A stretch of DNA of 21,235 nt from a virus. The position numbers and the translations under genes were made by a program. How positions within the stretch are numbered: position 1 is the stretch's first letter; every line of letters starts with the position of its first letter. Below are positions 1-19,730 of the stretch, piece after piece. A model generated the notes under the pieces. The model did no database searches and was not told the DNA's origin. It saw only the letters and a program-made list of their open reading frames with translations. Where the stretch lies: IMG/VR virus record IMGVR_UViG_3300018424_000308, positions 1-21,235 of that record; one strand, 5' to 3'.

Positions 1-672
1 AAATATAGACCTTTTCTTGTCAAAGAAGAAAAAATACTATTAATGGCCTTAGAATCAGGTGATGAAAAAGATATTTTAAGAGCTATCAGACAGATATTAT
101 CAAATTGTTTACTTACGGATTTAAATGTAGAACATCTACCTTTATTTGATTTGCAGTATATCTTTTTACAAATAAGATCCAGATCTATCGGAGAAACAAT
201 TGAAGTAAATTTAAAGCATAAAAACAACTTAAACAAAAATGGTGAATCTTGTGACGGCACACAAAAAGTAAAAATTAATATAGATGAAATAAAACCTGTA
301 AAAAATAAAGAAAATGAACCTAACATTAAATTATCAAAAGAAATGGGAATTATGATGAAATATCCAACAGTTGAATTGTTGGGACAAGTGACAAATTCTA
401 CTGAAATGAATGGTATGATTGATGATTTATTTGAAGTTGTCGTTGGATCAATAGATTACATATATCATAATGATGAAATGTATCATGCCAATGAATACAA
501 AAAAGAAGAAATTACTGAATTTTTAAATAATTTAAATTCTCAGCAATTTGATCAAATAAGATCATTCTTTTCTACTATGCCAACTATTTTTGTGTCTAAA
601 AAATATAGATGTAAAAAATGCGGTGTAGAAGAAGAGGTTGTATTGAGTACTCTTGAAGATTTTTTTTCGTGA
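1..672 (+). CDS. 26: gp26-like baseplate/tail-assembly protein (5' partial)
   Basis: Resembles the T4 gp26 baseplate hub family, a small protein needed for assembly of the baseplate hub and tail, acting in the host cytoplasm. The reading frame is open from base 1 and reads KYRPFLVKEEKILLMALES across the ATG at 43, a typical conserved N-terminal stretch of the family. The ATG at 43 is therefore internal and the true start lies upstream of the window. The C-terminus carries a CxxC pair (YRCKKCG) and ends in EDFFS at a TGA at 670-672. The last codons lie in a T8 run (660-667), and the next ORF is in the -1 frame and overlaps the stop, so part of the product may be extended by frameshifting. Position just before the tape-measure candidate matches a tail-assembly chaperone. 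The family call is from remembered motif similarity and gene order. Confidence 0.78.
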   Translation, partial: KYRPFLVKEEKILLMALESGDEKDILRAIRQILSNCLLTDLNVEHLPLFDLQYIFLQIRSRSIGETIEVNLKHKNNLNKNGESCDGTQKVKINIDEIKPVKNKENEPNIKLSKEMGIMMKYPTVELLGQVTNSTEMNGMIDDLFEVVVGSIDYIYHNDEMYHANEYKKEEITEFLNNLNSQQFDQIRSFFSTMPTIFVSKKYRCKKCGVEEEVVLSTLEDFFS

Positions 673-690
673 GCCTGTGTCATAACTCAC
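660..690 (+). other. candidate -1 ribosomal frameshift site with downstream hairpin
   Basis: The run T660-T667 contains a perfect X_XXY_YYZ heptamer, T_TTT_TTT, at 660-666, with TTT TTT as the in-frame gp26 codons (661-666). A -1 slip there enters the frame of the following ORF (TTC GTG AGC...), six bases before the gp26 TGA. Immediately downstream GTGAG (669-673) can pair with CTCAC (686-690): five base pairs, 12-base loop. The hairpin begins only two bases after the heptamer, closer than the usual 5-9, so its contribution is doubtful. The design parallels the G/GT frameshift of lambda-type tail chaperones. It is a prediction, not demonstrated. Confidence 0.5.
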
Positions 691-863
691 TTGAAAATTA
701 TTATGTAACAAATTTCAATTTAATGCAGCATCACAAATATAATTTAAATGATTTGGATAATATGATTCCTTTTGAAAGAGATATATATGTCACATTATTG
801 GTAAATTACATCAAAGAAGAAAACGAAAGATTAAAACAACAAGCAGCAGCGAGAAGGAAATGA
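669..863 (+). CDS. small ORF in gp51 position, probable C-terminal part of a gp26 frameshift fusion
   Basis: A 64-residue reading frame between the gp26-like gene and the tape-measure candidate, the place held by gene 51 in T4. If translated independently it could start at GTG 669 (overlapping the gp26 stop) or at ATG 723, giving MQHHKYNLNDLDNM. Neither has a convincing Shine-Dalgarno sequence. The core from residue 19 (LMQHHKYNL..L..MIPFERDIYVTLL) followed by a charged tail ending AAARRK looks like the short helical C-terminal part of tail-assembly chaperones. The frame is open upstream through the T8 run, so a -1 shift from gp26 would fuse the two. The end overlaps the next gene as ATGA (860-863), implying translational coupling. 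The exact relationship to T4 gp51, which is much longer, is uncertain. Confidence 0.6.
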   Translation: MSLCHNSLENYYVTNFNLMQHHKYNLNDLDNMIPFERDIYVTLLVNYIKEENERLKQQAAARRK

Positions 864-3616
864 GAAAATCCAAAAAATCAAAAAATTTAAAATTCAGTGA
901 ATTAATTGATTATACTAAAAAGAAATTTAATCCTTCAAATAAAAATAATTTTTCGAAAGAATCTGCCGAAGAGCCTTCCGGTAAAGAACAAATTAATTTA
1001 CTAAAATCTATATTAAAACCAATAACTCAAATGTCATATTGGACAAAAGAAATATTGGATTTACAAAAAAGTAATAGCATTCTTTTTAAAGATATAAATG
1101 ATTCTTTAATAACATTAAGACAAACTAATGGTCAAGAACTATCAAATTCAGAATCATTTACTCCTATGGTTAGAGAATTAAGTGATATAAATCAATCTAT
1201 TGAACAATTAAAATTATCAAATAAAAAAGAAGAGGATCAAAATCAAGCATTTCAAAAACAAAATAATAGTTACCTATCCAACTTATTATCAATTTTTGAA
1301 AAAAGAAGATTTAGAGAAGAGGAAGAAGATTTAGAGAAAGAAAGAGAAAGACAGAGACAAAAAACATCTTCACCTGGAATGTCAATTCCGAGTGGGCCAA
1401 GTTCTGGTTTAGGATCGGTTTTAGCAAAATTATTATCCAGTATTTTTCTAGGTCCAAAAGGTATGAGTTTATTAACAAGTTTAATACCTAAATCATTGGG
1501 AGCTGCTGGATTGGCATTAACAAAAGGTATTGCTGGGTTATTGTTAGGTCCGAAATTATTAGAATCACTGCAAAAAGCATTTGAAGAGGAAAATGTTACT
1601 GCAGGAGTTGGCACGTTTATTGATGAATTCTTTAATGATGATATGTTGAATAATTTAGGTAAAGGTGCTTTACTCGGTTTTATGACAATGGGAGGCATAC
1701 GTGGAATAGTTCCTGGATTAATGATAGGCGGTGCTATGACAACATTGCACGCTATATTTGGAAAAGACGCCACTAGTAAAATATTAACAGGCACTCCTGA
1801 TATGTTAAAAGAAACTTTTTTAATGGCAGGATTGGGGGCATTAGTGGGCAGCAAATTTGGAATTCCAGGAATAATTCTAGGAGCAGCATTTGGCTCACTG
1901 TTAGGAGTCATTAATGCTAAAGATACTAAATTTAATGTAGCGTCAATAACTATGGCCGCATTAGGAGGTTTGGGAGGAGCGTTAGCGGGAATGAAAATTG
2001 GTATGCTCATAGGTTCTGTAGGAACACCTGTAGGCATGATGGCAGGAGGTATGTTAGGGGTAACAATTGGACTGGCAGTAGCTTCTGTTATATCTTCAGA
2101 TCAACTAAGCGCATCAGAAGAAGCGACTAAAAAGTTTTCAAAAGCAGCATTAGCAAAATCCGAATTGTTGAAAAAATATAATGGAGATGTGTCAAAAATG
2201 AGTCCAGAAGATTTGAAACTTCTGGAACAATATGATAATGAATTAAATTTTGCAACAAAACAGTTTGAATCTGAAGGTATTACACCAGAAAATATTTCAT
2301 CATCTATCAGTTTATTAGAAACTGAAGATGAAAATGCTAGATTAATTGGTTCAAGAACTGCGGATGAATCGTATTATGATACTTTAGCTAATCAAATATT
2401 ATCAAAATCAGAAAATGAAAAATATTCAAAATTAAGTGATGTTCTTGATGTAGATCCTGAGAATTCAACGGCAATCACTAAAGTCGCAATGAAAGATTCA
2501 ATGGGCAACATACAACCTGCTGGTGTGCCTTTGAGTAAAATAAATGATCAATTTGATACAAAATTATTTACTGCTCTCAGAAGAATTTCAGCGCAAGATG
2601 ATAGTGTAATTGGACTAGATGATTTTGATGAAGAAGATAGACAAATGATTGAAGTCCAGAAAAAAATTATACAAAGAGATGTTAAAAATATAAAAAATAA
2701 CTTCAGCAATTCAGATCAAATTGATAATTCAAATAACGTTAAAGAGCAAGTGGTTGAAGAAAATCAAACTACACTGCTTGACAATAATCAAAGCAACAAT
2801 CAATTTTCAAGTAAAACTGAAAACAACACTGAAAATAATAACCAAAATAACAATCAGCGCACACAAACATCAAATGATCAATCTACAAGTTATACCAGTC
2901 AAGACACAAAATCATTGAATGAACAAGCCGCAGAGAGATTAAATGCCGTGTATAATTTGCATACACAACAATTGAAAGAAAATATTCAAAAATTTAATCA
3001 AATCAATAATTTAAATATTAAAAATTTTGGAGAAATATTCGAATATGATGATGAAAAGAAAACTCTTGTTTTATCAAAAGATATAGATTATACATTCAAA
3101 AAAAATCAATTTGGTAAAGAAATATCAGAAAATAGACAGTTGAAAAAAGGTAGTCCAATTAGGAATATGGTAGGATTGAGAGATGAAAACTCAATTGTTC
3201 AAAATTATATTCACTTAGCTAAAAATAGAATGCAATTATCACAATTTTTGCCAGGAACTGCCGAAAAAAATTCAATTCCTGATGTAATAAATAATCAAAT
3301 TTTAAAAGTTCCAGAATTTAAAACGGGTGCAGTATTTACAAAACCTCAGTTATTTATAGCGGGAGAATCACCAAAAAATAATCCAGAATTTTTATTTAAT
3401 AGACAACAAATGGAAAATTTAGGACATATTTTTTCCATGCAAAATGAAAACGAAAAAATGAAAAGTAATTTAACTATTGGGGCACCTATAATTGCCCCTG
3501 GAAATAATTCAAATTATATTGACAATAAAAGAATTTCGGTTCAAGAGTATAACATCACTGAGATACCTCCTGAACCGAATTCATCCGTATCTTTTAAAGA
3601 TATTCTCTCATATTAA
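860..3616 (+). CDS. putative tail tape measure / baseplate hub protein
   Basis: A 918-residue protein directly behind the tail-assembly chaperone-like pair, the position of a tape measure protein, which sets tail length and threads the tail tube. The start ATG overlaps the preceding TGA (ATGA). Regions seen: Lys-rich N-terminus; helical stretch to about residue 140; a very charged segment near 142-170 (RRFREEEEDLEKERERQRQK); a long Gly/Ala-rich hydrophobic region about 190-410 with GG/GA patterns, compatible with the membrane-active part of tape measures; an Asn/Gln-rich low-complexity stretch about 640-690; and a C-terminal motif about 822-860 (FKTGAVFTKPQLFIAGES) recalling the GE-containing C-terminal motif of many tape measures. 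It may be the functional counterpart of T4 gp29 (590 residues). Its stop overlaps the gp32 stop on the other strand by four bases (TTAA), with no terminator between. Confidence 0.6.
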   Translation: MRKSKKSKNLKFSELIDYTKKKFNPSNKNNFSKESAEEPSGKEQINLLKSILKPITQMSYWTKEILDLQKSNSILFKDINDSLITLRQTNGQELSNSESFTPMVRELSDINQSIEQLKLSNKKEEDQNQAFQKQNNSYLSNLLSIFEKRRFREEEEDLEKERERQRQKTSSPGMSIPSGPSSGLGSVLAKLLSSIFLGPKGMSLLTSLIPKSLGAAGLALTKGIAGLLLGPKLLESLQKAFEEENVTAGVGTFIDEFFNDDMLNNLGKGALLGFMTMGGIRGIVPGLMIGGAMTTLHAIFGKDATSKILTGTPDMLKETFLMAGLGALVGSKFGIPGIILGAAFGSLLGVINAKDTKFNVASITMAALGGLGGALAGMKIGMLIGSVGTPVGMMAGGMLGVTIGLAVASVISSDQLSASEEATKKFSKAALAKSELLKKYNGDVSKMSPEDLKLLEQYDNELNFATKQFESEGITPENISSSISLLETEDENARLIGSRTADESYYDTLANQILSKSENEKYSKLSDVLDVDPENSTAITKVAMKDSMGNIQPAGVPLSKINDQFDTKLFTALRRISAQDDSVIGLDDFDEEDRQMIEVQKKIIQRDVKNIKNNFSNSDQIDNSNNVKEQVVEENQTTLLDNNQSNNQFSSKTENNTENNNQNNNQRTQTSNDQSTSYTSQDTKSLNEQAAERLNAVYNLHTQQLKENIQKFNQINNLNIKNFGEIFEYDDEKKTLVLSKDIDYTFKKNQFGKEISENRQLKKGSPIRNMVGLRDENSIVQNYIHLAKNRMQLSQFLPGTAEKNSIPDVINNQILKVPEFKTGAVFTKPQLFIAGESPKNNPEFLFNRQQMENLGHIFSMQNENEKMKSNLTIGAPIIAPGNNSNYIDNKRISVQEYNITEIPPEPNSSVSFKDILSY

Positions 3617-5155: not shown

Positions 5156-5376
5156 AATCCAGGTATTGTAGCTGTTTTTGGTAAAAAATGCAAATCAATT
5201 GCTTCTTCCCTAACTTTTTGTTTTAATACACCTTGTATTAATTTACTAGCAGTTTCAGGTTCTAATTTATTTTCTTCACAATAATAAGTTATTGCTTCAA
5301 TGTATGTCATTTTAGTTGTCGAAACTAAATTTTCAATTATAGTTGTAAACTCTTGAGGTTTTAGCGTTTTTATCAA
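5152..5376 (-). CDS. 33: gp33-like late promoter transcription accessory protein
   Basis: A 74-residue protein with the helical pattern of the short marine phage gp33 proteins (TYIEAITYYCEENKLEPET). In T4, gp33 binds the RNA polymerase beta flap and links polymerase to the sliding clamp, co-activating late transcription with gp55. The T4 protein is longer (112 residues), so the call rests on motif memory plus its place directly before gp59 and gp32. The start codon is TTG (5374-5376), with a perfect AAGGAG Shine-Dalgarno at 5382-5387 and a five-base spacer. It overlaps the end of the ClpP-like gene as TTGA, so translation is probably coupled. Regulation through the weak start codon would keep its level low. 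Confidence 0.72.
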   Translation of the reverse strand: MIKTLKPQEFTTIIENLVSTTKMTYIEAITYYCEENKLEPETASKLIQGVLKQKVREEAIDLHFLPKTATIPGL

Positions 5377-6011
5377 GACAGCTCCTTCACTTCATCACAT
5401 ATTCCATATTTTAATGCCTCGTTTGAAGACAACCAGACATCATGCGGAGGTAATAAAAATTTACGTATATCATCATCCTCAATGCCTGTACACTTTCTAT
5501 AATGATTTAACATTCTTTCAGTGGTTAAATCATATTCTTTTTGCACAGCAAAAAGTTCGTGTTCTTTTCCAAATGAGCCCCAAGAATATTGATGTGATAA
5601 AATACTTGTATTTGGTGTCAATAAACGTTTTCCTTTCTTCCCTGCCATAAAAACAGAAAGTGCGGCACTCCCAATAATACCAAGACCGACAGTATGAATA
5701 GGTATGGAAGACCCTCTCATAACATCAATCAAAGCAAAACCAGCCGTCATATCTCCTCCGTGAGAATTTATGCATAATGTTAAAAATTCTGGTCTTGATG
5801 ATTTTTTCATATTATTCTGTAATATCCATTCAATTGCGGATAAGACCGAACCGCTATAAATATCATCAAATAAAAAATAATAACCTTTATTCTCCAAAGA
5901 TGCGCCATCATCTTCAACATTTTCTGATGGTGCATTGGCTATAAATTTTTCAGCAACTAAAGTTGCAAATTCGGGGGTAACCAATGCCTCAGCAATTTTT
6001 TCTTCATTCAT
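5373..6011 (-). CDS. ClpP-like serine protease (family S14)
   Basis: A 212-residue ClpP-fold protease with all three catalytic residues apparent. Ser115 lies in GIIGSAALSVFMAG, which aligns position for position with the GQAASMGAFLLTAG segment of bacterial ClpP. His140 lies in ILSHQYSWG (ClpP: VMIHQ), and Asp191 in HDVWLSSNEALKYGICDEV (ClpP: RDRFLSAPEAVEYG). The oxyanion/substrate strand NSHGGD is at 82-87 (typically NSPGG). An N-terminal extension of about 40 residues precedes the core. The ATG at 6009-6011 has a GAGGAAT ribosome site and overlaps the end of the large glycosyltransferase gene by eight bases. Bacterial ClpP works with an ATPase partner, and none is encoded nearby. It could feed on a host Clp ATPase, act alone, or act in assembly or host takeover. 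Its place beside gp33, gp59 and gp32 argues against a prohead-protease role. Confidence 0.88.
   Translation of the reverse strand: MNEEKIAEALVTPEFATLVAEKFIANAPSENVEDDGASLENKGYYFLFDDIYSGSVLSAIEWILQNNMKKSSRPEFLTLCINSHGGDMTAGFALIDVMRGSSIPIHTVGLGIIGSAALSVFMAGKKGKRLLTPNTSILSHQYSWGSFGKEHELFAVQKEYDLTTERMLNHYRKCTGIEDDDIRKFLLPPHDVWLSSNEALKYGICDEVKELS
5382..5387 (-). promoter_or_regulatory. ribosome binding site deciding the TTG start of gp33
   Basis: AAGGAG on the minus strand, five bases before TTG at 5374-5376 and inside the last codons of the ClpP-like gene. It supports initiation at the unusual TTG codon. Confidence 0.75.
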
Positions 6012-9000
6012 TATTCCTCATTTCGATTATATTTTCAATTGCCTGGAAAACAGTTTCAGGTGTTATTAATTTAGTACATTCAAACATTCTATCAGTTCCT
6101 TTCTGATCTGGACACCAAATCCAATCTCCTGGATCAAATTTGTGTCTATTATAACAACTATTGCAAGTTTTATCATTAAATATTCTAATGCATTTTGAGG
6201 AAAATTCTGACGAAGGATTACTAAATCCTGAAATTAATATGACATGTTTATTTAAAGACCATGCCACCCAAGATAAACCAGATCCTAATCCTATAAAAAA
6301 TTCTGCATCATTAATTGTTGCGATAGTCTCATTCAAAGTTCTTCCATGTCTAGGTATAGCATTGCTTGGACTAAAATTGAAATGATTACCCTGTCCAAAA
6401 GAACCGTGTTTATCTACACATACAACATCATACCCTTTTTCCTTTAAAAAGTCAACTACTTTTTCCCATGCTCCAGGATTATTCCAATATTTTGCCTGTG
6501 CGGTTGATTGTGTACCTATTACAACATAAGGTTTTTTCAGTTCGGTCTCTTTTTCGAAGACCGTTATTTTTGAAGGTTTTTCTTCCCATTCGGATAAACC
6601 TAATATACTAGCACACAATTTTTGTAAAGACACTTCTTTACAATCAACAGGAGATAAATCACATTTCTCAAAAAATCCAATTCTATAGGAATGATCAAAA
6701 TCATCAAATCCCGAATTTGGGTTTTCAAATTTAATTTCTGGATATTCGTTTTCAAATAATTCATTGAAAAATGTACTACAAATAACTTTACACCCATGTT
6801 TTTTTCTAAATTCTTCAACTGGTTGCATCCATGCCAAATTATCGCCCAATGCCGATGAATCTAGCCAAATGAATACTTTTTTATCTTTTAAATCCATCTT
6901 ATATTCATGAACCAACTCATTTGTTTTAGAATCATAAACTTCAATTTTCCATGGAATAAAATATGATAAAGTTGATGCGGCCCAACAATTATTTGCTATG
7001 GTAACCTGATAATGCACAAAATCTGTTGTACTATCTCTAAAAACAACATTAAATTCTTTATTGACATTTCCTTTTATATTGATATATGGATTAGGTTTTA
7101 CTGTAATATTGAAAAAAGTGCGATCAAAACTTTCCGAATTTAAATTTTTCAAATCATTACTATATGTGTAAATTAATCTATCTTTCATCTCTAAAGGAAC
7201 ATTAGATTTCAAATCTTTTGCTAAGTAGTAGTATTTTTCCAATTCTAGAAAAATATTATCCCAATCTCGTTCGATTGCATAATTTCTGGCAAGTTTTGAA
7301 TTCAGATCTAAATCTTGTAAATGGGTTTTTATTCCATTTACTATATCATCTACATCCCTTGTGCATTGATAAAAACCAGGCACTTCCATTTGATCTTGTA
7401 AAGTTCCTACAACAGGTAGTCCACACGCCATTCCTTCTAATACGCCTAAACATGGTTGACCCGTTTCCATAGAAGCCGGATGTATTATAATATCCTGACC
7501 TGCCAAAATATTTCTAAGATCTTTTTTAAGAACGTTGCCTAATAAATTAATTTCTATATCATTTTTACACTGGTCATAAATATCGTAAAAGACTTTATTG
7601 TAATCTTGGTGTATAGAATCTGCACCAATTATCGTTATTGGAAATCCTAATTTATGAGCGGCTAAAATTGCTAAATGAAATCCTTTTCTATCATCTCCGC
7701 CTCCAACACAAACTAATCTATTTCCTCTTGTTTTATTAATATCAGGATAGTAAAAATTAGTATCTACACCATGGTGTAAATGTTTTAACTTATCTTTAGC
7801 ATCGAAAAAATTTATAAAATTATTAATAGGCGTTAAACTCAAAACTGAATTATCAATGGTCGATTTTATTTGATTATAAGAAAAACTATATTTTGCTTGA
7901 AGACCCACCCAAGCATCATGAACCGTATGAATGAAAGGAACAAATTTATTTTTTAACGTGTCATTGAAATTGGCCATATGATTGTGAAAAATATCAGTTT
8001 TTTCAAGATCTGTTTGATTTATTTGATCTAACCACATCAATTTCACATCATGGCCTCTTCTTTTTGCGGCATTTATATATTGTCCAACTACTTCTTCAAC
8101 ACCACCATATCCTTTTGGAGGAATTTCAATGCCACATCCTGGATGTATTTGAACAATATTTAATTTTTGAAAATTTGATATTTGATTTATCGGTTTTACT
8201 TCACTTTTTACTTTTTGAACTATTTTAGGTTCATGTATGATTTCAATTTTTTTATCATTTTGTATTTTTGATCGTGTTACCATAAAAAATCTATTATCTT
8301 GACAGAACCATCTAAACTGATAACCTTCTTTGCTCATAACATCGACAATATTGTCAATAACATTGTAATTAGTTCTATTATTTCTCATCAAATGAGTATT
8401 ATTACAAAATATCACAATCTCACAAGAAATTTTATTTTGATTCTCGATTTTTTGTACGATGTTTTGTATGTCATGTTCTGTATCGTCTAAAGAAACTTTT
8501 ACATAAAAATAATTTATATTTTCAAATAAATCAAAGTTTACAATGTGATCAAAAAATAATTTTTGAAGTTTATCTTTTTTTACCATATCGTAATTAAAAT
8601 TACAAAAACAAATGTTTTGTGCATTTTTTTCATGATTTAAAAATGATGTATATGTTGATTCTGCCGCATCATAAATTTCATCGAAATATTTAATATTTCT
8701 AGGATATTCTAAAATAAAGTTTTCTCTTCTTTTTTTAGCATCAATCGCCAATTGGGCTTCACCTCTTGTATTCCAATTCCTGTGATTTTCAGAATCTTCA
8801 TGATCTCTCGCTAAATAAGTCGTTCTAGGTATTGTGATCCATTTTCCTCTTTCTTCCATCATCAATAACCACTGTCCATCATTAGAGGAACAGGCATCAC
8901 CATCTTTATGCACTGGAAATTTTAGTCCCGGCAAATTTCTGAAAATTCTAAGATAACCGAAAATATTAGTTCGATGAGGCCAAAGTTTTTCAAATCCTTC

Positions 9001-9459
9001 CAAAAAAGAATCATTATCCGTGGTCATATAAACATTATCTCTAAAATTATCAAGATATTTTTTTTCAGAACTTGTAGGAAAAAAGTCATTATATTTGTTT
9101 GCATTAAAATGCATCAATACACTTTCTGGAAATAAATTAAAATAATAATTTATTTTTTTAAGAGTATTTGGTAATAAAAAATCATCAGAATCAATATGAC
9201 AAACTACATCACCAGTTGCATGGATTTGAGGATTCCACCAAATTTGTTTTTTATATTCCGGTTTAATAATTTTAATTCTTTGATCATTTTTAGAAATTTT
9301 ATTAATTATATTTAAAGTACCATCGGTCGAAAAATCATCAGAAATCAACCACTCCCAATTTTCGTACTCCTGTGAGAAAATAGATTCAGCAGTTTCTTCT
9401 AAATATTTTTCAGCATTATAGCAAGAAGTAATCAAAGATAATTTCAATTCATCGTACAT
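6004..9459 (-). CDS. three-domain glycosyltransferase: GT2 + GT4 + TibC/Aah-like O-heptosyltransferase
   Basis: An 1151-residue fusion. Residues 1-230: GT-A family 2 domain (LSLITSCYNAEKYL; SDDFS at 40-44; DSDDF at 90-94). About 430-760: GT-B family 4 domain (IHPGCG, PPKGYGGVEE, LGNVLKKDLRNIL, and a METGQPCLGVLEGMACG donor-site region). About 800-850: beta-rich linker module. About 860-1151: bacterial autotransporter heptosyltransferase (BAHT) domain, with WLDSSALGDNLAW, QSTAQAKYWNNPGAWEKVV, GLGSGLSWVAW, ISGFSNPSSEF and the four-cysteine metal 'finger' C1099-x2-C1102-x13-C1116-x11-C1128 (CNSCYNRH, WIWCP, FECTKLITPE). Known TibC and Aah transfer heptose from a nucleotide-heptose to Ser/Thr of adhesin repeats. 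This protein could build and attach a short glycan on a protein. Its start ATG overlaps the upstream TAA by one base and has the ribosome site AAAGGTGA. Confidence 0.87.
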   Translation of the reverse strand: MYDELKLSLITSCYNAEKYLEETAESIFSQEYENWEWLISDDFSTDGTLNIINKISKNDQRIKIIKPEYKKQIWWNPQIHATGDVVCHIDSDDFLLPNTLKKINYYFNLFPESVLMHFNANKYNDFFPTSSEKKYLDNFRDNVYMTTDNDSFLEGFEKLWPHRTNIFGYLRIFRNLPGLKFPVHKDGDACSSNDGQWLLMMEERGKWITIPRTTYLARDHEDSENHRNWNTRGEAQLAIDAKKRRENFILEYPRNIKYFDEIYDAAESTYTSFLNHEKNAQNICFCNFNYDMVKKDKLQKLFFDHIVNFDLFENINYFYVKVSLDDTEHDIQNIVQKIENQNKISCEIVIFCNNTHLMRNNRTNYNVIDNIVDVMSKEGYQFRWFCQDNRFFMVTRSKIQNDKKIEIIHEPKIVQKVKSEVKPINQISNFQKLNIVQIHPGCGIEIPPKGYGGVEEVVGQYINAAKRRGHDVKLMWLDQINQTDLEKTDIFHNHMANFNDTLKNKFVPFIHTVHDAWVGLQAKYSFSYNQIKSTIDNSVLSLTPINNFINFFDAKDKLKHLHHGVDTNFYYPDINKTRGNRLVCVGGGDDRKGFHLAILAAHKLGFPITIIGADSIHQDYNKVFYDIYDQCKNDIEINLLGNVLKKDLRNILAGQDIIIHPASMETGQPCLGVLEGMACGLPVVGTLQDQMEVPGFYQCTRDVDDIVNGIKTHLQDLDLNSKLARNYAIERDWDNIFLELEKYYYLAKDLKSNVPLEMKDRLIYTYSNDLKNLNSESFDRTFFNITVKPNPYINIKGNVNKEFNVVFRDSTTDFVHYQVTIANNCWAASTLSYFIPWKIEVYDSKTNELVHEYKMDLKDKKVFIWLDSSALGDNLAWMQPVEEFRKKHGCKVICSTFFNELFENEYPEIKFENPNSGFDDFDHSYRIGFFEKCDLSPVDCKEVSLQKLCASILGLSEWEEKPSKITVFEKETELKKPYVVIGTQSTAQAKYWNNPGAWEKVVDFLKEKGYDVVCVDKHGSFGQGNHFNFSPSNAIPRHGRTLNETIATINDAEFFIGLGSGLSWVAWSLNKHVILISGFSNPSSEFSSKCIRIFNDKTCNSCYNRHKFDPGDWIWCPDQKGTDRMFECTKLITPETVFQAIENIIEMRNNE

Positions 9460-10469
9460 TAATCACCTTTAAAATAAATTGTTGTTGTTTGTTTAATATA
9501 TTGGTACAATTTTTCATCATTTAAGTCAAATGTTTTAATTAATTCATCATTCATGAAAACTTTAATAATTTTACCTTTTTCAAATTTAGCCAAATTAAAA
9601 CAACCTTTGTAAAAAAAAGAATCGGAGATAATATTGTCATCGACTACAATTTTCATATTCATATCAATAAAATGATTTAAATGAAACACATAATCGTATT
9701 GTTCATTTCCAATATAAAGCGCTATCCAAGGTTTAGTTTCCTCTATATGCATTCGATCTTGTTCAAATTGTATTTTATCAAGATTTGGAACAAAATCTAT
9801 TAATTCAACATTTGTATTTTTATTTTCATTAAATTTTGTTAAATTCAAAATGTATGCAAAAAATTCTTCGCCTGGTCCAAACCCATGTCTCAATGTTATT
9901 TCTTTCTGTAATTCCAAGTCTAAATATTGGGAAAAACAATTAAACATATAATCAACATTACCTGACATTAAGCGTGTTGTGACTTGCATTTTTCCATGTG
10001 TTTCTATATCATTTTCAGTAGACCAATGATAAAAAACACCATCCAATTTTTTAGATAATATTTTGCTTTCATTGAGTATTAATTCGTGCGGACTGTGTAT
10101 CAATCCATCATAATCCATAATATGAATTACCTTTTTTCTCAAAATTTTAGCATAATTAATTCCTAATAACAATAATCTAAAAACAGCAAAAGTTGTATTA
10201 TGGCCATGAAATTGTTGCGTTGATAAGTCAAAACCATCAGTGAAATATGTTATGTAACCTAAAAATTTAGGATCAGTTAAAACTATATTATCTTTATCAT
10301 AGACATAATAATCGACCTTTTCCTGTATTTGCTTCGAGGCAGGTGTATGAGTTGTTAATATTATTTCATATCCGAAAAATTTGACATTATTAATCAATTC
10401 TAGACAACATTTTATTCTATCAGGAGTTGATAAATGTGCGTGTATTAAAACAATAGCGTCAGAGGACAT
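9459..10469 (-). CDS. putative GT-A-type glycosyltransferase
   Basis: A 336-residue protein with a Rossmann-like N-terminus (AIVLIHAHLSTPDRIKCC, then FGYEIILTTHTP) and a DxD-type motif, IMDYDGLI, around residues 118-124. This suggests a GT-A nucleotide-sugar transferase; I do not recognise a named family. It is translationally sandwiched between the two large glycosyltransferase fusions. It overlaps the preceding gene by 11 bases, and its TAA shares a base with the next ATG. In-frame GTG 10481 and ATG 10478 are alternative starts. ATG 10469 was chosen because AAGGTGA lies eight bases ahead of it, while the others sit on or next to that ribosome site. The acceptor is unknown. Confidence 0.62.
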   Translation of the reverse strand: MSSDAIVLIHAHLSTPDRIKCCLELINNVKFFGYEIILTTHTPASKQIQEKVDYYVYDKDNIVLTDPKFLGYITYFTDGFDLSTQQFHGHNTTFAVFRLLLLGINYAKILRKKVIHIMDYDGLIHSPHELILNESKILSKKLDGVFYHWSTENDIETHGKMQVTTRLMSGNVDYMFNCFSQYLDLELQKEITLRHGFGPGEEFFAYILNLTKFNENKNTNVELIDFVPNLDKIQFEQDRMHIEETKPWIALYIGNEQYDYVFHLNHFIDMNMKIVVDDNIISDSFFYKGCFNLAKFEKGKIIKVFMNDELIKTFDLNDEKLYQYIKQTTTIYFKGD

Positions 10470-13134
10470 AAGTGACATCACCTTCTTTTAGCAAGGTAGT
10501 CCCATCCTTATAAGATTTATCAAGATATGAATCACCTGAACATTGTATAGAATATGGATTTTTTGTTATTCCCCCAACCAACTCATTTAAAATATTATTA
10601 TTTAACCACAAATCATAAGTGTCCCATTTAGTTTCTTCAAATTTATTCAAAAAATAATCTCTAGATGTTGATGGAACCAAGTAACAATGAGCTTCAGACA
10701 TTCTGTCCGTAGTATCAAAGTATATATTTTTATGATTATAGTGCCATTCAACTATTCTTTTACCGAAATTCATATATCTCAAATCATAATATTTCAAATC
10801 ATCGAATCTATCAATAATTTCCTTATACACTTCAGTAATAGGTTTAATAAAAATAGCATCGCATTCACAAAATAAAACTCCATCTACATCATCTTTTAGA
10901 TGTTCTTGCATTGCAATTCTATGCGCCAGGTAATTTCCATAATGTGCAGGTGTTAATTTATAATGTCCGGGTTCCATTTGAACATCATCAGGTCTTGCAC
11001 AACTCTCTATAGGAGGCATTTGATTGTATTTACCATTTATCATTTGAACATATTCCCAACCAGCATAATCAACCAGTTCTTTCAAATGTCTAATAGATTC
11101 TTTTTCTCTGCTACCATTTACATCAACTAACATATGTACAACTTTCAATTTAGGAATTCTCCAAGCCCACAAATTTCCCAAACCTCCATCAACTATAGCG
11201 TCATCTTTTTTCACTTCATAACCTAATTTTTCTAATCTGGTTATTAATTCATTTGATCTTTTAATTCTCGCCTCGACTGAATTATCATTATTAAAAAAAT
11301 CATGAACTTCCATAGTTATTTTTCTAATTTTATACTTTAACAAATCATCGGATATTTGAGGAAAAATATTCCATTCAGCGCCTTCACAATCCAATTTTAA
11401 AACATCCACTCTCTCTAAATTATTATTATTCATGAATGTGTCAAAAGTCATAGTTCTAACAGTTTCAATTTTTTTCTTACCCAATGTTGTTGGATTACTT
11501 TCATCAGTATTAAAACTATCATAAAAAGAATTTACTGATGATGATCCTAAAACTTTAAATTCTGCCGTTCCGTTTTGATCAGATAAGGCAAAATTAAATT
11601 TTTTAACTTGTTCATAACCTTTTAAATTTTTACACAAAATGTCAAAAGTTTCTTTTGCAGGTTCAAATGTAAAAATGTTTTTAGCACCTTTATCTAAAGC
11701 ATATAAATCAAATAATCCATAATGTCCACCGACATCCACAACAGTGTCCCCTTCTTGAATTTTTACATCTTTATAACATTCTTGATAAAAAACCTCATAC
11801 GCTGTAAACCAAGATGCTGGATCATCACATATACCTTCAATATTTTTAACAATACCTTTAACTGTTATATCCTTGACTTGGTTTGAAAAATTAAACGTTT
11901 TTTGATATATTAAATGATGATCATTCATTAAACTTTCAGAAGATAGTGTAGAAAAATAATCTTTGGGAGCATCATATATTCTAACATCTATACCACCTAA
12001 TAAATCTGGAGAACAATTGGGTTGAGTCCAAAGATCGGGTCCAAACACATTTGTTCGATAGACTAATAAATTTGTTTTGGTATCGAATAAACATAACAAT
12101 TTATTTTCCAATAAAGAAAATACCTCACCAGTATGAACAGATATTTTAGATCCTTCCGTCAAATTGCACTTTATTGGACCATCATCAATATTCAATTTTC
12201 TTAATATTTTTAATCTATTAATTTCGAAATTTTCTTTCGTCAAATAAGTCACCTTATCATCTAATTTGTTTTGATAAGAATCTAATTTATAAATTAAGGT
12301 TGGCATATTCCAACTCAATGCTTCTTTAATCGATAATGGATTAGTTTCTTTATCGTGAGTATTTCCTTGAGATGTGAATAAAAATAGATCCATACACGAA
12401 TAAAAATTATCAACATCCGATCTTTCACCCCAAATTTTACAATTTTCAGGTAAATCATTGATCAAGGGCTCCCAATAAGATTGAAAATTTGGCGCCATGT
12501 TGCCAACAAAATGAAATTCTATAGGGTAATCAATTAAAGATTTTGCATATTCAATAATTTCTGATTGATTTTTTCGTGGCGTAAACAATCCAACATTCAA
12601 TACATGATGTTTTTTTGGATCTAAGTTCAAAAATTTTAATCCGTCATTTCTATTTTTTTCATCTTTTAAGACATTTGGATATTCAATAACACTACAAGGA
12701 ACACCTAAATTTCTGAATAATGAAGCTTGATTATCACTGCAAAATAAAAATTTATCAGGCAAAAATCTTTTATTGGAGGGGTCGAATGAGGAATCATGTG
12801 ATGTTTCATAAATTAAATAATTTCTATCGGAATTATAAATTTTTTTTGTTATATCATCATTCATAAAAAATTCTGGCATCTCTTCAAAATGAATAATATT
12901 AGGTTTTATTTCATCTATATATTTAAAAATATTTTCTTTTTCTTCTCCTAAAGTATAAACAGAATTATTTAAAAGATCTATTATTTTATTTTTTTGTACT
13001 CTATAGATTCCATAGTCATTATATTCAATAACATAAATAGTATAAAAATCTTTTAACAATTCAATTTTTTTGAGAAGATATTGTGGAGCTCCTCCAGTGG
13101 ATAAATGAGGAGTAATGTATAAAATTTTATTCAT
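10459..13134 (-). CDS. three-domain fusion: GT4 glycosyltransferase + FkbM methyltransferase + GT-A-like domain
   Basis: An 891-residue fusion. About 1-300: GT4-like domain (ITPHLSTGGAPQYLL; NVGLFTPRKNQ; LSIKEALSWNMPTLIY near the donor site). About 340-390: beta-rich module resembling the linker of the 6004-9459 protein. About 440-645: FkbM-family SAM methyltransferase (VVDVGGHYGLFDLY near 465, FEPAKETFDIL, VDVLKLDCEGAEW near 577-585, TMEVHDFF). About 660-891: a further transferase-like domain (VVHMLVDVNGSREKES; FCECDAIFIKP near 755-765, a DxD-like metal site). FkbM enzymes usually O-methylate sugars. The start has AGGATG as ribosome site (13141-13146), and a consensus promoter lies about 36 bases upstream of the ATG. 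It is the first gene of a long co-directional operon running down to gp32. Confidence 0.82.
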   Translation of the reverse strand: MNKILYITPHLSTGGAPQYLLKKIELLKDFYTIYVIEYNDYGIYRVQKNKIIDLLNNSVYTLGEEKENIFKYIDEIKPNIIHFEEMPEFFMNDDITKKIYNSDRNYLIYETSHDSSFDPSNKRFLPDKFLFCSDNQASLFRNLGVPCSVIEYPNVLKDEKNRNDGLKFLNLDPKKHHVLNVGLFTPRKNQSEIIEYAKSLIDYPIEFHFVGNMAPNFQSYWEPLINDLPENCKIWGERSDVDNFYSCMDLFLFTSQGNTHDKETNPLSIKEALSWNMPTLIYKLDSYQNKLDDKVTYLTKENFEINRLKILRKLNIDDGPIKCNLTEGSKISVHTGEVFSLLENKLLCLFDTKTNLLVYRTNVFGPDLWTQPNCSPDLLGGIDVRIYDAPKDYFSTLSSESLMNDHHLIYQKTFNFSNQVKDITVKGIVKNIEGICDDPASWFTAYEVFYQECYKDVKIQEGDTVVDVGGHYGLFDLYALDKGAKNIFTFEPAKETFDILCKNLKGYEQVKKFNFALSDQNGTAEFKVLGSSSVNSFYDSFNTDESNPTTLGKKKIETVRTMTFDTFMNNNNLERVDVLKLDCEGAEWNIFPQISDDLLKYKIRKITMEVHDFFNNDNSVEARIKRSNELITRLEKLGYEVKKDDAIVDGGLGNLWAWRIPKLKVVHMLVDVNGSREKESIRHLKELVDYAGWEYVQMINGKYNQMPPIESCARPDDVQMEPGHYKLTPAHYGNYLAHRIAMQEHLKDDVDGVLFCECDAIFIKPITEVYKEIIDRFDDLKYYDLRYMNFGKRIVEWHYNHKNIYFDTTDRMSEAHCYLVPSTSRDYFLNKFEETKWDTYDLWLNNNILNELVGGITKNPYSIQCSGDSYLDKSYKDGTTLLKEGDVTYVL

Positions 13135-13210: not shown

Positions 13211-14359
13211 ATGGCAAATAAAAACAGACCATTAATATGGAATTCAACACTCAAGGGTCTTAAAGAGTTAACCGACAGACAATTAGAGACATTGGTATAT
13301 TTAGTGCAGGCAAAATATGCTGAAAAACTTAAAAATACATCAACAGCATATCATGGACAAGTCGTGTTGTCCAGCACTTCACCGGGAGCAGGATGGTCCA
13401 ACTTTGGCATAGCGGAAGACCATAGACGAAAAGCTGTAACCTATGGTTACGTATTAGATGATAATACACCCGATACTTTTGGTACAGGAGGTTTAGATTT
13501 AATGAACTTCACAGGAGATACCGCAACAACTCAATATGAACCTAGAGTCAAGTTTAATTATCACCAACTTTCAAAAGAACTAAGTACACCTTCTCAGCAA
13601 ACAGCAAATGCAGATGGATATACACATTTCACAACAAATATGAGCCCTGCAGGATTAATACCGGCGGGAAATGACATGGATACAGTTATAAATGCAATTA
13701 CAAAAGAAGTTTGTAAAGAAATGAAAACAGGAAATGGTATAGGAACTTATTACGTAGGTCTAGACACTGATACAACACCAGGAACTTTCAAAGGCACTTT
13801 TGAAAAAATTGGAGATTTTTTTCAAGATACATATTCATCATTTGCAAATCCAACAGTAACAAATTTAGGATCATCTGGTCAAAATTTTGGTTCTGCAGTC
13901 ACAGGAGGAGCGTTACCTACTGGAACGGAAACCTTAGGTAATAAATATTCATTGTTTATAAAAACAGGTTTAGGTGATGATTTCAATTTAAATACAACAG
14001 ATAGACTATTTGATAATGTCGCAAAAATAAATGGCACTGAAATAAATTTAATGGAATTTGATACCGCAGTAAATAATGATGCTACAATGCTCAGTAGATA
14101 CGCTGGATTAGATGACATGATTGATAAAATTATTTTACCAGCATTAACAAATGATTCTACTCCGACATATGCCATTCAAAAAGACAGTAAACCATCATCT
14201 AAAATCTTTAGAGGATATTTTGAAGATTCTTATCTATCAGATTCTAATACTTTTGATTTCAGACTGACAGCAGGAACTACATATGTTTATCAACAATTGG
14301 ATATACCTACTGGATCAAATTTCAGTATTAAAGCGCTTTATTTGAAAATAGCTAATTAA
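13211..14359 (+). CDS. putative virion structural protein A1
   Basis: A 382-residue protein that I cannot place in a named family. Its N-terminus (LKGLKELTDRQLETLVYLVQAKYAEKL) matches that of the gene at 15023-16054 (LKSFKELSDDQLEILSYTVRKKYASLL). More matches follow, such as LSRYAGL with LSRYNGI and TGNGIGTYYVGL with TGDRVGSQYFAL, so the two are full-length paralogues. The rest is rich in Gly, Thr, Ser and Asn with short beta-prone segments (LTAGTTYVYQQLDIPTGSN near the end), typical of exposed virion proteins such as fibres or decorations. The N-terminal helical part would be the docking region. The ribosome site is weak (ATAAGCA before ATG 13211). A second gene type (B1) follows after a nine-base gap with a good Shine-Dalgarno sequence. 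Confidence 0.55.
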   Translation: MANKNRPLIWNSTLKGLKELTDRQLETLVYLVQAKYAEKLKNTSTAYHGQVVLSSTSPGAGWSNFGIAEDHRRKAVTYGYVLDDNTPDTFGTGGLDLMNFTGDTATTQYEPRVKFNYHQLSKELSTPSQQTANADGYTHFTTNMSPAGLIPAGNDMDTVINAITKEVCKEMKTGNGIGTYYVGLDTDTTPGTFKGTFEKIGDFFQDTYSSFANPTVTNLGSSGQNFGSAVTGGALPTGTETLGNKYSLFIKTGLGDDFNLNTTDRLFDNVAKINGTEINLMEFDTAVNNDATMLSRYAGLDDMIDKIILPALTNDSTPTYAIQKDSKPSSKIFRGYFEDSYLSDSNTFDFRLTAGTTYVYQQLDIPTGSNFSIKALYLKIAN

Positions 14360-14368
14360 GGAAATAAA

Positions 14369-15016
14369 ATGAATGAAGAATTAAATTCAGAAGAATCTTC
14401 AGAAGAACAAGGTATATTTACAAATTCTTCGATAATCGAAAATGATGTCATTGAAGAAACCACATCTGAATCTGAAACTGATAATGTCGTTGAAGAAACC
14501 ACATCTGAATCTGAAACTGATAATGTCGTTGAAGAAGATGAAATAAAAGAGAAAATTTTATATGCACACTATACGAACGAAACTAAATCTGTCATAAGAA
14601 TGTACTATATTGATCCAGAGGATGGAATGCAAAAAACTGGGGTTTGGTCAAATCAAAAAATAATTCCAATCATAAATAGACTATACGAAACATACACTGA
14701 AGAAGATTTGACAAGAAATTACTATTTCATGTTGAAAAAAGAGTATGAATTAAGTGAATCATTAGAAGAATATGTAGAGTTTAAAAAATCTGGTGGTGTA
14801 TACGCAACATCTCTAGCAAAATTAAAATCATTAACTTTAGAAGATTTATTTAAATTGAAACTGGAAATATTTGAAGAAGAAATTGTTCAAAATTCAGAAA
14901 ACATTGAACTGAGATCTTTAATGAGAAAATCTAATGACATTATTGAATTATTACACCATTACTATGTCTTATTAGAAGAAGAAAAAAATAAAACTTTAGA
15001 AATCGTAGAGGAATAA
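14369..15016 (+). CDS. small acidic partner protein B1
   Basis: A 215-residue acidic protein of unknown function. Residues about 1-65 are Glu/Ser/Thr-rich and contain a 13-residue sequence repeated in tandem (EETTSESETDNVV). The remainder is a folded helical region with KILYAHYTNETKSVIRMYYIDPEDG. Near the C-terminus LEDLFKLKLEIFEEE, LRSLMRKSNDIIELLHHYY is shared with the gene at 16064-16561 (VEDLFKIKLNIFDLE, LRSKIRKSKTLPELMHHYY). Both B genes directly follow an A gene, so B is probably a partner or assembly chaperone for A, or a small structural subunit; this is inference. The ribosome site TAAGGA overlaps the A1 stop codon, six bases before ATG 14369. Confidence 0.6.
   Translation: MNEELNSEESSEEQGIFTNSSIIENDVIEETTSESETDNVVEETTSESETDNVVEEDEIKEKILYAHYTNETKSVIRMYYIDPEDGMQKTGVWSNQKIIPIINRLYETYTEEDLTRNYYFMLKKEYELSESLEEYVEFKKSGGVYATSLAKLKSLTLEDLFKLKLEIFEEEIVQNSENIELRSLMRKSNDIIELLHHYYVLLEEEKNKTLEIVEE
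14453..14530 (+). repeat. 39-bp in-frame tandem repeat in B1
   Basis: Two identical 39-base units (14453-14491 and 14492-14530), each encoding EETTSESETDNVV, with a few more matching bases (GAAGAA) after the second. Perfect identity at the DNA level implies a very recent duplication by slippage, or copy-number variation among relatives. It lengthens an acidic Ser/Thr-rich N-terminal tail by 13 residues per copy. Confidence 0.95.
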
Positions 15017-15022
15017 AATCAT

Positions 15023-16054
15023 ATGGCAGTCCGAAAACCTGTATATTTTGATCAAGCATTAAAATCTTTCAAAGAATTATCCGATGATCAATTAGAAATT
15101 TTGAGTTACACTGTGAGAAAAAAATATGCCAGTCTACTTGCAACTAATTCATCTACTATAGGAGGCGCCATATCAGCAGGCGCATCAGCGAGTAATTATA
15201 GTTCAGTAGGCACCATATATGACACAATCACTAACACAACTACAAGAACACAGACCGATAACACATCACCTCCACCAGGTGCGGACAACACTTTTCCCAG
15301 TACATTATCATCTTCGGCACACGTAGAAACTCAAACATCATATAGTTATAGGCAATATATACCATCCAATACCATCACAAACTCGACATTCAATACTTAC
15401 AGTTATTTGGTATGGAATAACACAATAAAAGGTTTGCAATTTGAAAAATCTACAGCAAATTTTTTTGATACGATAATATCAGATTGTGTCAATCAAATTC
15501 ATACCGGAGACAGAGTTGGTTCTCAATATTTTGCATTATCTACACCAACAAATGGAACTTGGGCTGATTTGGGTTTAGTTTATCGAGACACTACTTATTA
15601 CAATACGACAGTAAATTTCAACAGATATGTAAAAACAGCAGATAGCAACGAATCAAATGTATTAAACAATCCTTCGGTATACAAGTTTTTATCTAGATAC
15701 AATGGAATTGTAAATAACAATCCAAAATTAACTGAAATACCAATTAATGATGTTACGAATAATTTAATCACTGATATTTTAGTTAAAATGCTGGAAATTA
15801 GACATCCAAAATATACTCTAACAAGAATTGGTGCGACTAATAGCACAACTGCAGCGACTACAACAATATCATCCTATAGTGGGACAAATCATGGATTTTT
15901 ATATGAAAGATTTGTTTTATCAGGATATACCCTTTCTTCAGTAAGTGGTCCTTCAGGAGGAGTATACACTGGAAGTTATGTTCCGGATAATAATAGTTAT
16001 AGATATAATGTATGGGCACTTGTTCCAAATGGAAATAACACAACTTTACTATGA
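15023..16054 (+). CDS. putative virion structural protein A2 (paralogue of A1)
   Basis: A 343-residue paralogue of the protein at 13211-14359, sharing the N-terminal helical region (KELSDDQLEILSY.VRKKYASLL) and scattered later motifs. After it comes an extreme Ser/Thr-rich stretch: 27 of 64 residues at 43-106, including TNTTTRTQTDNTS and STLSSS. This is a plausible acceptor for O-glycosylation by the neighbouring enzymes or a flexible exposed linker. The C-terminal part is Gly/Tyr/Asn/Ser-rich and beta-prone (SGPSGGVYTGSYVPDNNSYR). ATG 15023 is preceded by GAGGAA at 15008-15013 in the end of B1. The A2 stop falls in the ribosome site region of B2, so the two are tightly coupled. Identity as fibre, neck or decoration protein cannot be decided. 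Confidence 0.57.
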   Translation: MAVRKPVYFDQALKSFKELSDDQLEILSYTVRKKYASLLATNSSTIGGAISAGASASNYSSVGTIYDTITNTTTRTQTDNTSPPPGADNTFPSTLSSSAHVETQTSYSYRQYIPSNTITNSTFNTYSYLVWNNTIKGLQFEKSTANFFDTIISDCVNQIHTGDRVGSQYFALSTPTNGTWADLGLVYRDTTYYNTTVNFNRYVKTADSNESNVLNNPSVYKFLSRYNGIVNNNPKLTEIPINDVTNNLITDILVKMLEIRHPKYTLTRIGATNSTTAATTTISSYSGTNHGFLYERFVLSGYTLSSVSGPSGGVYTGSYVPDNNSYRYNVWALVPNGNNTTLL

Positions 16055-16063
16055 GAGGTGATC

Positions 16064-16561
16064 ATGGAAATAGATATTGAAAATATTGAAATTATTGATG
16101 CTGTACATCCTGATATTTCAGAAAAAAAATTAGTATTGGTAGAATATCTTGATATTGCCGGGTTGACAAAAAGCGTGGCTATTAGTATTGATGACGGCAC
16201 AGATATATCAAAAAAAGTATTGGAAAAATTTTCAGAAGATGATATTGTAAAAAATACCAAAATATTATACGATGAAAACAAAAAGAAAGCAGAAGATTTT
16301 CTGCAGTATTTAGAATGGAGAGATTCAGGAAAAATATCTGCTAATGATATTAAAGAAGTTGAAGTAGAAAAAGAAATGTCACTAGAATTATTGGAAAATA
16401 CGTCTGTTGAAGATTTATTTAAGATAAAACTCAATATATTTGATTTGGAAGAGTTTCAAGAATTTGAAGACCGAGATTTAAGGTCAAAAATTAGAAAATC
16501 AAAAACATTACCAGAACTAATGCATCATTACTATGATTTTCTAGTTAGACAAGATTCGTAA
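16064..16561 (+). CDS. small acidic partner protein B2 (paralogue of B1)
   Basis: A 165-residue acidic protein without the repeated N-terminal tail of B1, but with the same body. It has LVLVEYLDIAGLTKSVAISIDDG in the N-terminal half, EDDIVKN, FLQYLEWRDSGK, then VEDLFKIKLNIFD and LRSKIRKSKTLPELMHHYYDFL. Start chosen at ATG 16064, with AGAGGTG (16054-16060) as the ribosome site. The in-frame GTG at 16058 lies inside that site and is unlikely to be used. It directly follows A2 as B1 follows A1. Its last 31 bases overlap the end of the convergent glycosyltransferase gene on the other strand. Confidence 0.62.
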   Translation: MEIDIENIEIIDAVHPDISEKKLVLVEYLDIAGLTKSVAISIDDGTDISKKVLEKFSEDDIVKNTKILYDENKKKAEDFLQYLEWRDSGKISANDIKEVEVEKEMSLELLENTSVEDLFKIKLNIFDLEEFQEFEDRDLRSKIRKSKTLPELMHHYYDFLVRQDS

Positions 16562-17232
16562 TCATGATCATACTTTAGTATGATATCTAAATTAAACCTA
16601 GTATTCATGAAATGTACCATTTTAATTTGATCGTTAAATTCTCCTGCCAAATAAGCCCAACCAGAAGGATGTTTACAGTTTAAATCTAAATATTCTTCAA
16701 AATATTTAGGTTCATCATAAGTTGAATCGTATCTAAAAAACCAACTATCTGGTAAAAATTTTAATTTTAGTTTTTTGCGCACCATTGTTTCTACAAAAAA
16801 CTGCTCTCCATTAACTTTACCAGTTGTTATTTTATTTTCTAAAAAATAATTCATCCAAAAATTTGGTTTAGACATAAATTCATCGTAAATGTATTTACAA
16901 TCTTTAGGATAATATTTTTGAAATCCCCCATTTAATTTATAATTACCCTTATCAGTATCTTTCCACCAAGAATTAGCAGATAAAAATTCACCTCTTTCGA
17001 TAGGATATTCTATCGCTTCCATATAGTCATTGATGAATAACATATCAATATCAATTACTAAAACCGGTTCATCAATATTCAAATTCATTATTCTCAATTT
17101 ATTCCACTGAAGAATCATTCCATCAATCTCATCTCTAATCCATGTAACTTCACCTAATTTATGATTAATGTATTTTTCTACATCTTCTCCGTACTTATCG
17201 CCTATTCTAACAGCAAATATTTTTGTGCCCAT
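16531..17232 (-). CDS. small DxD glycosyltransferase-like protein (paralogue 1)
   Basis: A 233-residue protein with a GT8-like GT-A layout: N-terminal KIFAVRIGDKYGEDVEKYIN, then VLVIDIDMLF with the DxD pair D61/D63, and WWKDTDKGNYKLNGGFQKY in the acceptor half. The GxKYxxxxV opening is shared with the proteins at 17202-17759 and 18965-19714, marking three diverged paralogues. Start chosen at ATG 17232 (GAGAAG six bases upstream); TTG 17238 is an in-frame alternative. It overlaps the end of the upstream gene by 31 bases and its own end overlaps B2 on the other strand by 31 bases. Donor and acceptor are unknown. Confidence 0.65.
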   Translation of the reverse strand: MGTKIFAVRIGDKYGEDVEKYINHKLGEVTWIRDEIDGMILQWNKLRIMNLNIDEPVLVIDIDMLFINDYMEAIEYPIERGEFLSANSWWKDTDKGNYKLNGGFQKYYPKDCKYIYDEFMSKPNFWMNYFLENKITTGKVNGEQFFVETMVRKKLKLKFLPDSWFFRYDSTYDEPKYFEEYLDLNCKHPSGWAYLAGEFNDQIKMVHFMNTRFNLDIILKYDHDYESCLTRKS

Positions 17233-17759
17233 TCGCAACTTCTCATACTTTCAAAAGACTGGTTAAATAAACAAACAGGATAATTTAATTCTTTTCTATC
17301 AAACATCCAAGACCAGCAAACTTTATCGTATGTTTGATAATCAATCTCTCTGTAAATAAACTCATCTATGCCTCTCCAATATTTCACCCTACTATAATCC
17401 TCATCCTGATAAAATTTATCGTAAATGTGTGACAAATCTCCTACCCACGATATAATTGAAGAATTTAAAGGAGTATGCGCAGGCTGTCTCCACCACGCCT
17501 TAATTACTGTAAAATTCTTACGTAGTAAGGTTTTTATATTGGATCTGATGACTACATCTAAATCAAAAAAAATATATTGTTTATTTTCTTTAAATCTTTT
17601 AAAAATTTTTAATTTATCGTAAACAGAACCTTCTCCATCTGTTATTCCCGAAATCTCATAATCAATATCATCACAATTTTTTTTTATCATATGATTTAGA
17701 TTATCCACCCACCATTGATCATATTTGTTTCCTGTACAAACATATATTATTGTTACCAT
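17202..17759 (-). CDS. small DxD glycosyltransferase-like protein (paralogue 2)
   Basis: A 185-residue protein opening IIYVCTGNKYDQWWVDNLN, with the metal-binding type motif FFDLDVV (D66/D68). A signature WWRQPAHTPLNSSIISW around 89-105 matches YWRDPLSHV...TPLNSSFVAW in the protein at 18965-19714; both also end with CLFNxS. It is shorter than its paralogues at the C-terminus. The ATG (17757-17759) overlaps the preceding methyltransferase-like gene by seven bases, and only a weak AGG lies upstream, so expression probably depends on coupling. Likely a sugar transferase of unknown specificity. Confidence 0.65.
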   Translation of the reverse strand: MVTIIYVCTGNKYDQWWVDNLNHMIKKNCDDIDYEISGITDGEGSVYDKLKIFKRFKENKQYIFFDLDVVIRSNIKTLLRKNFTVIKAWWRQPAHTPLNSSIISWVGDLSHIYDKFYQDEDYSRVKYWRGIDEFIYREIDYQTYDKVCWSWMFDRKELNYPVCLFNQSFESMRSCEWAQKYLLLE

Positions 17760-18385
17760 TGGCCTATAACCATAAATCTAGTGTAATTATTCATTTTCAT
17801 TTTACCTGAATATAAAACTTTTTTAATTTGGTTTTTTTGAATCAATTCTTCTGCTGAATGAACGCAATTAACATGCTCTGGTAAATTAAAATAATTATTT
17901 GATTGTAAAACTAATATAGGCTTGAAAGGATAATCTTTATAAAATTTTTTCATAACAACTACATCTCGCATGTGTTCTGAAGAAGTATTAATAATTAAAT
18001 GTCTTCTTCTGATTTCTTCTCTATCAAAATAATCATCAAATACAGATATTTTATAGTTATAATTAAAAAAATTAGTGTATTGTGCAAATATTTTTTTGCA
18101 AGTTTCATCTAGTTCAAAAAAATCTATTTGATCGATTTTAAATGCAAAATTCAACATTTCGATCAAAGGAAAACCAAACCACCCTCCAATAATTTCTATT
18201 TTAATTGGTACCACAAAATTGCATGTTTTTTCTAATTGTCTAATCATCCAAATTTTAGATTCATGTTGACCTTCGGACACGGAATCAATATAACTATTCA
18301 AATAATTTGGATGATTATTTAATATAAACGATTGAGCTCTAAAATATGGAGAATTTACATATCTATCAAATTCCAAATTCATCAT
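17753..18385 (-). CDS. SAM-dependent methyltransferase-like protein (paralogue 1)
   Basis: A 210-residue class I methyltransferase-fold protein of a type I recall from phages and marine bacteria. It has IEIIGGWFGFPLIEML (SAM loop around 65-71), IDFFELDETCKKIF (acidic residue after strand 2, about 87-100), VFDDYF (about 116-121), then IINTSSEHM (131-139), VLQSNNYF, HVNCVHSAEELI and a YTRFMVIG end. The N-terminal third (EGQHESKIWMIRQL) is a helical cap. It is clearly paralogous to 19731-20465, even at DNA level around the SAM loop. The ATG overlaps the upstream gene as ATGA. The substrate is unknown; adjacency to sugar transferases suggests glycan methylation. Confidence 0.7.
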   Translation of the reverse strand: MMNLEFDRYVNSPYFRAQSFILNNHPNYLNSYIDSVSEGQHESKIWMIRQLEKTCNFVVPIKIEIIGGWFGFPLIEMLNFAFKIDQIDFFELDETCKKIFAQYTNFFNYNYKISVFDDYFDREEIRRRHLIINTSSEHMRDVVVMKKFYKDYPFKPILVLQSNNYFNLPEHVNCVHSAEELIQKNQIKKVLYSGKMKMNNYTRFMVIGQW

Positions 18386-19714: not shown

Positions 19715-19730
19715 GAATTGATCCCATCAA

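Follow-up and report, generated by a model that had tools for sequence, protein, structure and literature searches.

A probable −1 frameshift joins the gp26- and gp51-like frames of an uncultured marine T4-like phage into one tail assembly chaperone gene

Introduction

In phage lambda, the tail assembly chaperones gpG and gpGT are a short form and a form with a −1 extension; a slippery heptamer lies toward the 3′ end of the first ORF, and the gene is situated directly 5′ of the tape measure gene. Vladimirov, Gautam and Davidson (Virology 2022) reportedly identified the tail assembly chaperone genes of T4-like phages, describing frameshifting in several groups and, in T4, genes 26 and 51 as separate genes.

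In a 2016 review, G-T frameshifting was described as conserved in long-tailed phages "except T4" (PMC5009743). Vladimirov et al. 2022 is cited for poly-T slippery sites in the TAC-N genes of T4-like phages (PMC12846349) and for T4-like phages in which a short gene is accompanied by a separate longer fused gene (PMC10274946). Chaperones of Vandenendeviridae and Andersonviridae are likewise made by a −1 frameshift, which takes place where TAC-N ends, on a conserved GTTTTT motif, and their extension is often mis-annotated or unannotated (PMC12846349).

The DNA analyzed here, referred to as the window, is an IMG/VR virus record of 21,235 bases that carries T4-type genes, among them homologues of gp32, gp59, and the late-transcription coactivator. 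A gp26-family frame and a small gp51-like frame lie at its left end, directly upstream of a probable tape measure gene. The likeness to lambda is one of arrangement, with T_TTT_TTT as the slip site and an extension of about 65 residues in the window; Vandenendeviridae and Andersonviridae are other phage families, likened to it by the frameshift arrangement.

The T4-like chaperone genes of Vladimirov et al. 2022, as that study is cited, belong to the same gp26/gp51 gene family, to which the window adds only a new uncultured marine member. A sequence-only reading of the window had not known the frameshift pair to be described; however, by the same accounts, T4-like chaperone genes are covered there, the frameshift-made pair was already reported in 2022, and it is a common trick in phages. 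Since the main point was thus published, the gain of the present work is an independent, larger comparative test.

Results

Arrangement of the Two Frames

The following features, all on the plus strand, are considered.

1–672, plus strand: gp26-family protein (PF12322 T4_baseplate), putative short chaperone form (TAC-N / G-like), assigned from Pfam, PHROG 150, and a 223-aa open frame from base 1
660–666, plus strand: slippery heptamer T_TTT_TTT in the gp26 frame, inside a T8 run, read from the sequence; T_TTT_TTN occurs here in 94/95 non-redundant junctions
657–863, plus strand: −1 frame extension, gp51-like, putative TAC-C / T-like domain, assigned from PHROG 634, the C-terminal part of PHROG 150, and homology to the T4 gp51 C-terminus
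669–690, plus strand: 5-bp hairpin (GTGAG 669–673 / CTCAC 686–690) noted in the sequence-only reading, weak and probably non-functional
860–3616, plus strand: probable tape measure protein gene, assigned from position, weak PHROG matches, and the annotation of phage HTVC008M

The first frame matched PF12322 in Pfam with an E-value of 6.1e-49 and 167 bits, against a curated cut-off of 24.5. Its 5′ end lies beyond the left edge of the window, and ATG 43 is an internal Met; according to N-terminus comparison, the start in relatives lies about 35 codons before ATG 43. Within PHROG 150 (282 positions), gp26 covers positions 42–232 and the small −1 frame positions 231–277, and some family members must therefore hold both parts in one frame. 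The −1 frame also matched PHROG 634, "baseplate hub assembly catalyst", with an E-value of 1.9e-29.

The end of gp26 reads GAA GAT TTT TTT TCG TGA, with the T8 run at 660–667. The heptamer at 660–666 is in frame 0, and one sense codon (TCG) separates it from the stop, TGA 670–672. The −1 frame is closed upstream by TGA 654–656 and is open from 657 to its stop, TGA 861–863; the predicted junction peptide is EDFFFVSL. No Shine-Dalgarno-like sequence was detected at either candidate start of the small ORF, GTG 669 or ATG 723. The sequence-only reading was thereby confirmed in placing an in-frame T_TTT_TTT within a T8 run just before the gp26 stop, in describing a small −1 ORF open through the run and overlapping that stop, and in seeing no convincing ribosome site at GTG 669 or ATG 723.

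The gene directly downstream begins with ATG 860, which overlaps the −1 frame stop. Its matches to tape measure families were weak (phrog_167, E = 7.9e-4; phrog_794, E = 2.8e-3), and in HTVC008M a gene shortly downstream of the pair is annotated "putative tail tape measure".

The reading preferred here, with a probability of roughly 94%, is that gp26 and the small ORF form one tail assembly chaperone gene of the lambda G/GT type, expressed in two forms by a −1 frameshift. Most ribosomes would read gp26 and end at TGA 670–672, yielding the short form. A minority would shift back by one base on T_TTT_TTT, where the tRNAs would pair anew with UUU UUU in the −1 frame; these ribosomes would continue to position 863, yielding a long form composed of gp26 and about 65 further residues. 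On the analogy of lambda gpG/gpGT, the tape measure protein would be coated with the short form in many copies and the long form in few, and these copies would recruit subunits of the tail tube. Slippage in vivo, its efficiency, and the chaperone function of the gp26/−1 product are what we infer for this locus.

Conservation of Phase and Slip Site

IMG/VR was scanned with an alignment of the C-domain as query. The junction set comprised 100 junctions, of which 95 were non-redundant at 90% identity. Alignment of the junction in relatives, proposed in the sequence-only reading, showed both the T run and the phase to be conserved. The −1 phase was found in 95/95 junctions, and T_TTT_TTN, in the gp26 frame and within the overlap, in 94/95; its last base was C in 59 cases, T in 29, A in 5, and G in 1. 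Elsewhere in the same gp26 genes, slippery heptamers occupied 129 of 21,822 in-frame positions (0.6%), so that none would be expected in an overlap of about 10 codons. These counts take related phages as independent, except after clustering of gp26 at 40% protein identity, where the 26 frameshift-type representatives showed the −1 phase in 26/26 cases and the heptamer in 25/26.

Codon choice around the site was constrained as well. The codon preceding the heptamer was AGT, GAT, AAT, TCT, or GCT, with T at the third position in 94/94 junctions and a variable residue, while the background frequency of third-position T for these residues is 34–74%. The first Phe codon was TTT in 94/94 junctions, compared to 70% in the gene body. 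The corresponding log10 probabilities were −21 for T before TTT and −15 for the first Phe codon, both ignoring shared ancestry.

Relatives in GenBank belong to Kyanoviridae, Emdodecavirus, Otagovirus, Pootjesviridae, Menderavirus, and Busanvirus, and to Straboviridae outside the T4 group (Nanhuvirus, Angelvirus, Schizotequatrovirus-like). A TTT TTC or TTT TTT pair stands just 5′ of the gp26 stop in these phages, with TTT TTG in RHph_Y68, and their −1 frame contains the block NYY..NF.LMQHHKYSL.E.ENM.PWER.IY or a diverged version of it. In L004–L006, a clade 67% identical in gp26, the T8 run, the phase, and the peptide are kept, and GTG 669 is replaced by ATA, as seen in L004.

The junction of the window was also present on three other IMG/VR contigs. 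Together with the −1 phase in every junction, this renders negligible the idea that the two frames are truly one in the phage and were separated by an assembly error or gene decay, an idea that the single-frame coding of T4 gp51 would otherwise favor.

Slippage of RNA polymerase on the T8 run, giving a mixture of mRNAs of which some join both frames, is a further alternative and is considered highly improbable. T8 runs are present in the window and in 10 other junctions, and in bacteria slippage is known to occur on stretches of nine A or T (PMC5009743); however, 65/94 relatives have only T6 at this place, and the conserved unit is a frame-specific heptamer and not a long run. In the window, polymerase slippage could contribute some of the product; on these two grounds, it cannot be the mechanism of the family.

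In members resembling Ackermannviridae, the −1 arrangement is retained but no T_TTT_TTN heptamer is present. Dickeya phage Coodle (2127–2145) has A_ATT_TTC in its place and Vibrio phage K483 (around 2079) has A_CTT_TTC. As T_TTT_TTN is missing, a different slip mechanism may operate in them.

Coding in the −1 Frame Without a Start

In the stretch from the slip site to the first conserved ATG, substitutions numbered 3332, 2374, and 5887 at −1 frame positions 1, 2, and 3, respectively, corresponding to a third-position bias. The conserved coding sequence thus extends 5′ of ATG 723. In the first 12 codons past the slip site, 77/94 junctions had no ATG, and an ATG with an SD-like sequence was found in 0/94. 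Four relatives had no usable start in the −1 frame: no start occurs for about 30 codons in L029, L034, and L051, and none at all in L105. Because the −1 frame is conserved as coding before any start, and because relatives without a usable start exist, ribosomes must enter it from gp26.

These observations bear on the possibility that the small ORF is a separate gene whose translation begins at GTG 669 or ATG 723, or by reinitiation after termination at the gp26 stop, with the T run being incidental. A distinct small gp51 gene is indeed annotated in GenBank records, and GTG 669 shares bases with the gp26 stop both in the window and in L016. The annotated starts are nevertheless inconsistent between records, and some records leave the ORF unannotated. 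In L004, where GTG 669 is lost, the peptide and the slip site remain; the first 12 codons hold no ATG, GTG, or TTG in 56/94 junctions; the four relatives above lack a usable start; and the candidate starts have no SD. A separate gene would also leave unexplained both the invariant phase and the T before TTT in 94/94 junctions, as well as the coding conservation upstream of ATG 723. This explanation is judged very unlikely, though a shade less so than polymerase slippage.

The −1 extension is wholly unannotated in five of the relatives (L011 and L106–L109), probably owing to the lack of a good start codon.

Candidate Stimulators

The hairpin that the sequence-only reading had placed after the slip site does exist (669–673 / 686–690), but its role as a stimulator was rejected. 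Folding of the region after the slip site was no better than that of shuffled sequences in the window (z = +0.8), and the hairpin is not conserved, since its arms are broken to ATAAG/CTCTC in L004. Across the family, the mean fold value was −1.06, compared to −0.54 in a control region.

An SD-like element 7–9 nt 5′ of the heptamer was enriched in relatives, the mean best anti-SD energy of the family being −5.66 kcal/mol compared to −4.25 ± 0.12 kcal/mol when synonymous codons were resampled. The element was weak in the window (−2.2 kcal/mol) and also in its nearest relatives, L004 and L016. The dnaX frameshift of E. coli has an SD-like stimulator, and by analogy the element in relatives may stimulate slippage. 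It is conceivable, at somewhat less than even odds, that most T4-like members use such an upstream stimulator and that the clade of the window, having lost it, depends on T_TTT_TTT inside a longer T8 run, which would represent a change of stimulator within one conserved frameshift.

Comparison with T4 Genes 26 and 51

In T4, gene 26 (minus strand) and gene 51 (plus strand) are divergent, and both products match PF12322. The 249-aa T4 gp51 matches PHROG 634, and its match to PHROG 150 reaches the end of that family. When the fused products of 97 frameshift-type loci, with T4-type sequences left out of the query, were compared with the T4 gp51 family by hhalign, a probability of 99.2% and an E-value of 1.3e-19 were obtained over 235 columns spanning the junction. 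The gp26 part alone aligned to gp51 residues 7–198 (E = 6e-12), and the −1 part alone to residues 203–244 (E = 4e-7), adjoining the match of the gp26 part.

Because the fused products align across the junction, T4 gp51 is, as judged by sequence comparison, the long form in a single frame, and T4 gp26 corresponds to the short form. The T4 genes thus share PF12322 and, in gp51, the domain order of the frameshift product, gp26 corresponding to the short product; the difference is that T4 has two divergently transcribed genes and no frameshift.

Structure Prediction

The structure model of gp26 was of high confidence, with a pLDDT of 92.3. In VIA-align, the HK97 tail assembly chaperone 2ob9 (2ob9_A) was the second match, a weak one (Z = 4.5, 83/107 residues, rmsd 3.9), and the other matches were unrelated domains. 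Foldseek gave no significant match for the model in the PDB and many "baseplate hub" proteins in a viral structure library, and a sequence search of solved structures gave no match. For the model of a T4-type gp51, no chaperone was present among the matches listed. The predicted likeness of gp26 to 2ob9 is suggestive.

Other Genes in the Window

A glycosylation island occupies 6004–13134 on the minus strand. One of its proteins, of 1151 aa, combines glycosyltransferase domains of three kinds (GT2, group 1, and family 9); another, of 891 aa, has a glycosyltransferase domain together with an FkbM methyltransferase domain. A ClpP-type protease gene (5373–6011, minus strand) has the late-transcription coactivator gene on one side and the glycosyltransferases on the other.

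A two-gene module occurs twice in tandem on the plus strand (13211–15016 and 15023–16561); the first genes are 26% identical (E = 2e-10) and the second genes 32% identical (E = 2e-17), and no PHROG match was found for the genes of 13211–16561. A second duplicated pair of neighboring genes is located on the minus strand (17202–18385 and 18965–20465), with glycosyltransferase-like genes that are 27% identical and partner genes that are 54% identical over 200 residues. The partner gene at 17753–18385 had no PHROG match.

Discussion

The proposal that gp26 and gp51 of this phage are a frameshift chaperone pair, made in the sequence-only reading, is supported by the phase and the slip site over 95 junctions, by the codon constraint, by coding conservation upstream of any start, and by the in-frame T4 gp51.

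Accordingly, the annotations "baseplate hub subunit gp26" and "hub assembly catalyst gp51" would be corrected in hundreds of phage genomes, mostly marine. The two would be one frameshifting chaperone gene, of which T4 genes 26 and 51 are probably a split version. The wider T4-like family would then be no exception to frameshifting, contrary to the exception made for T4 in the 2016 review (PMC5009743).
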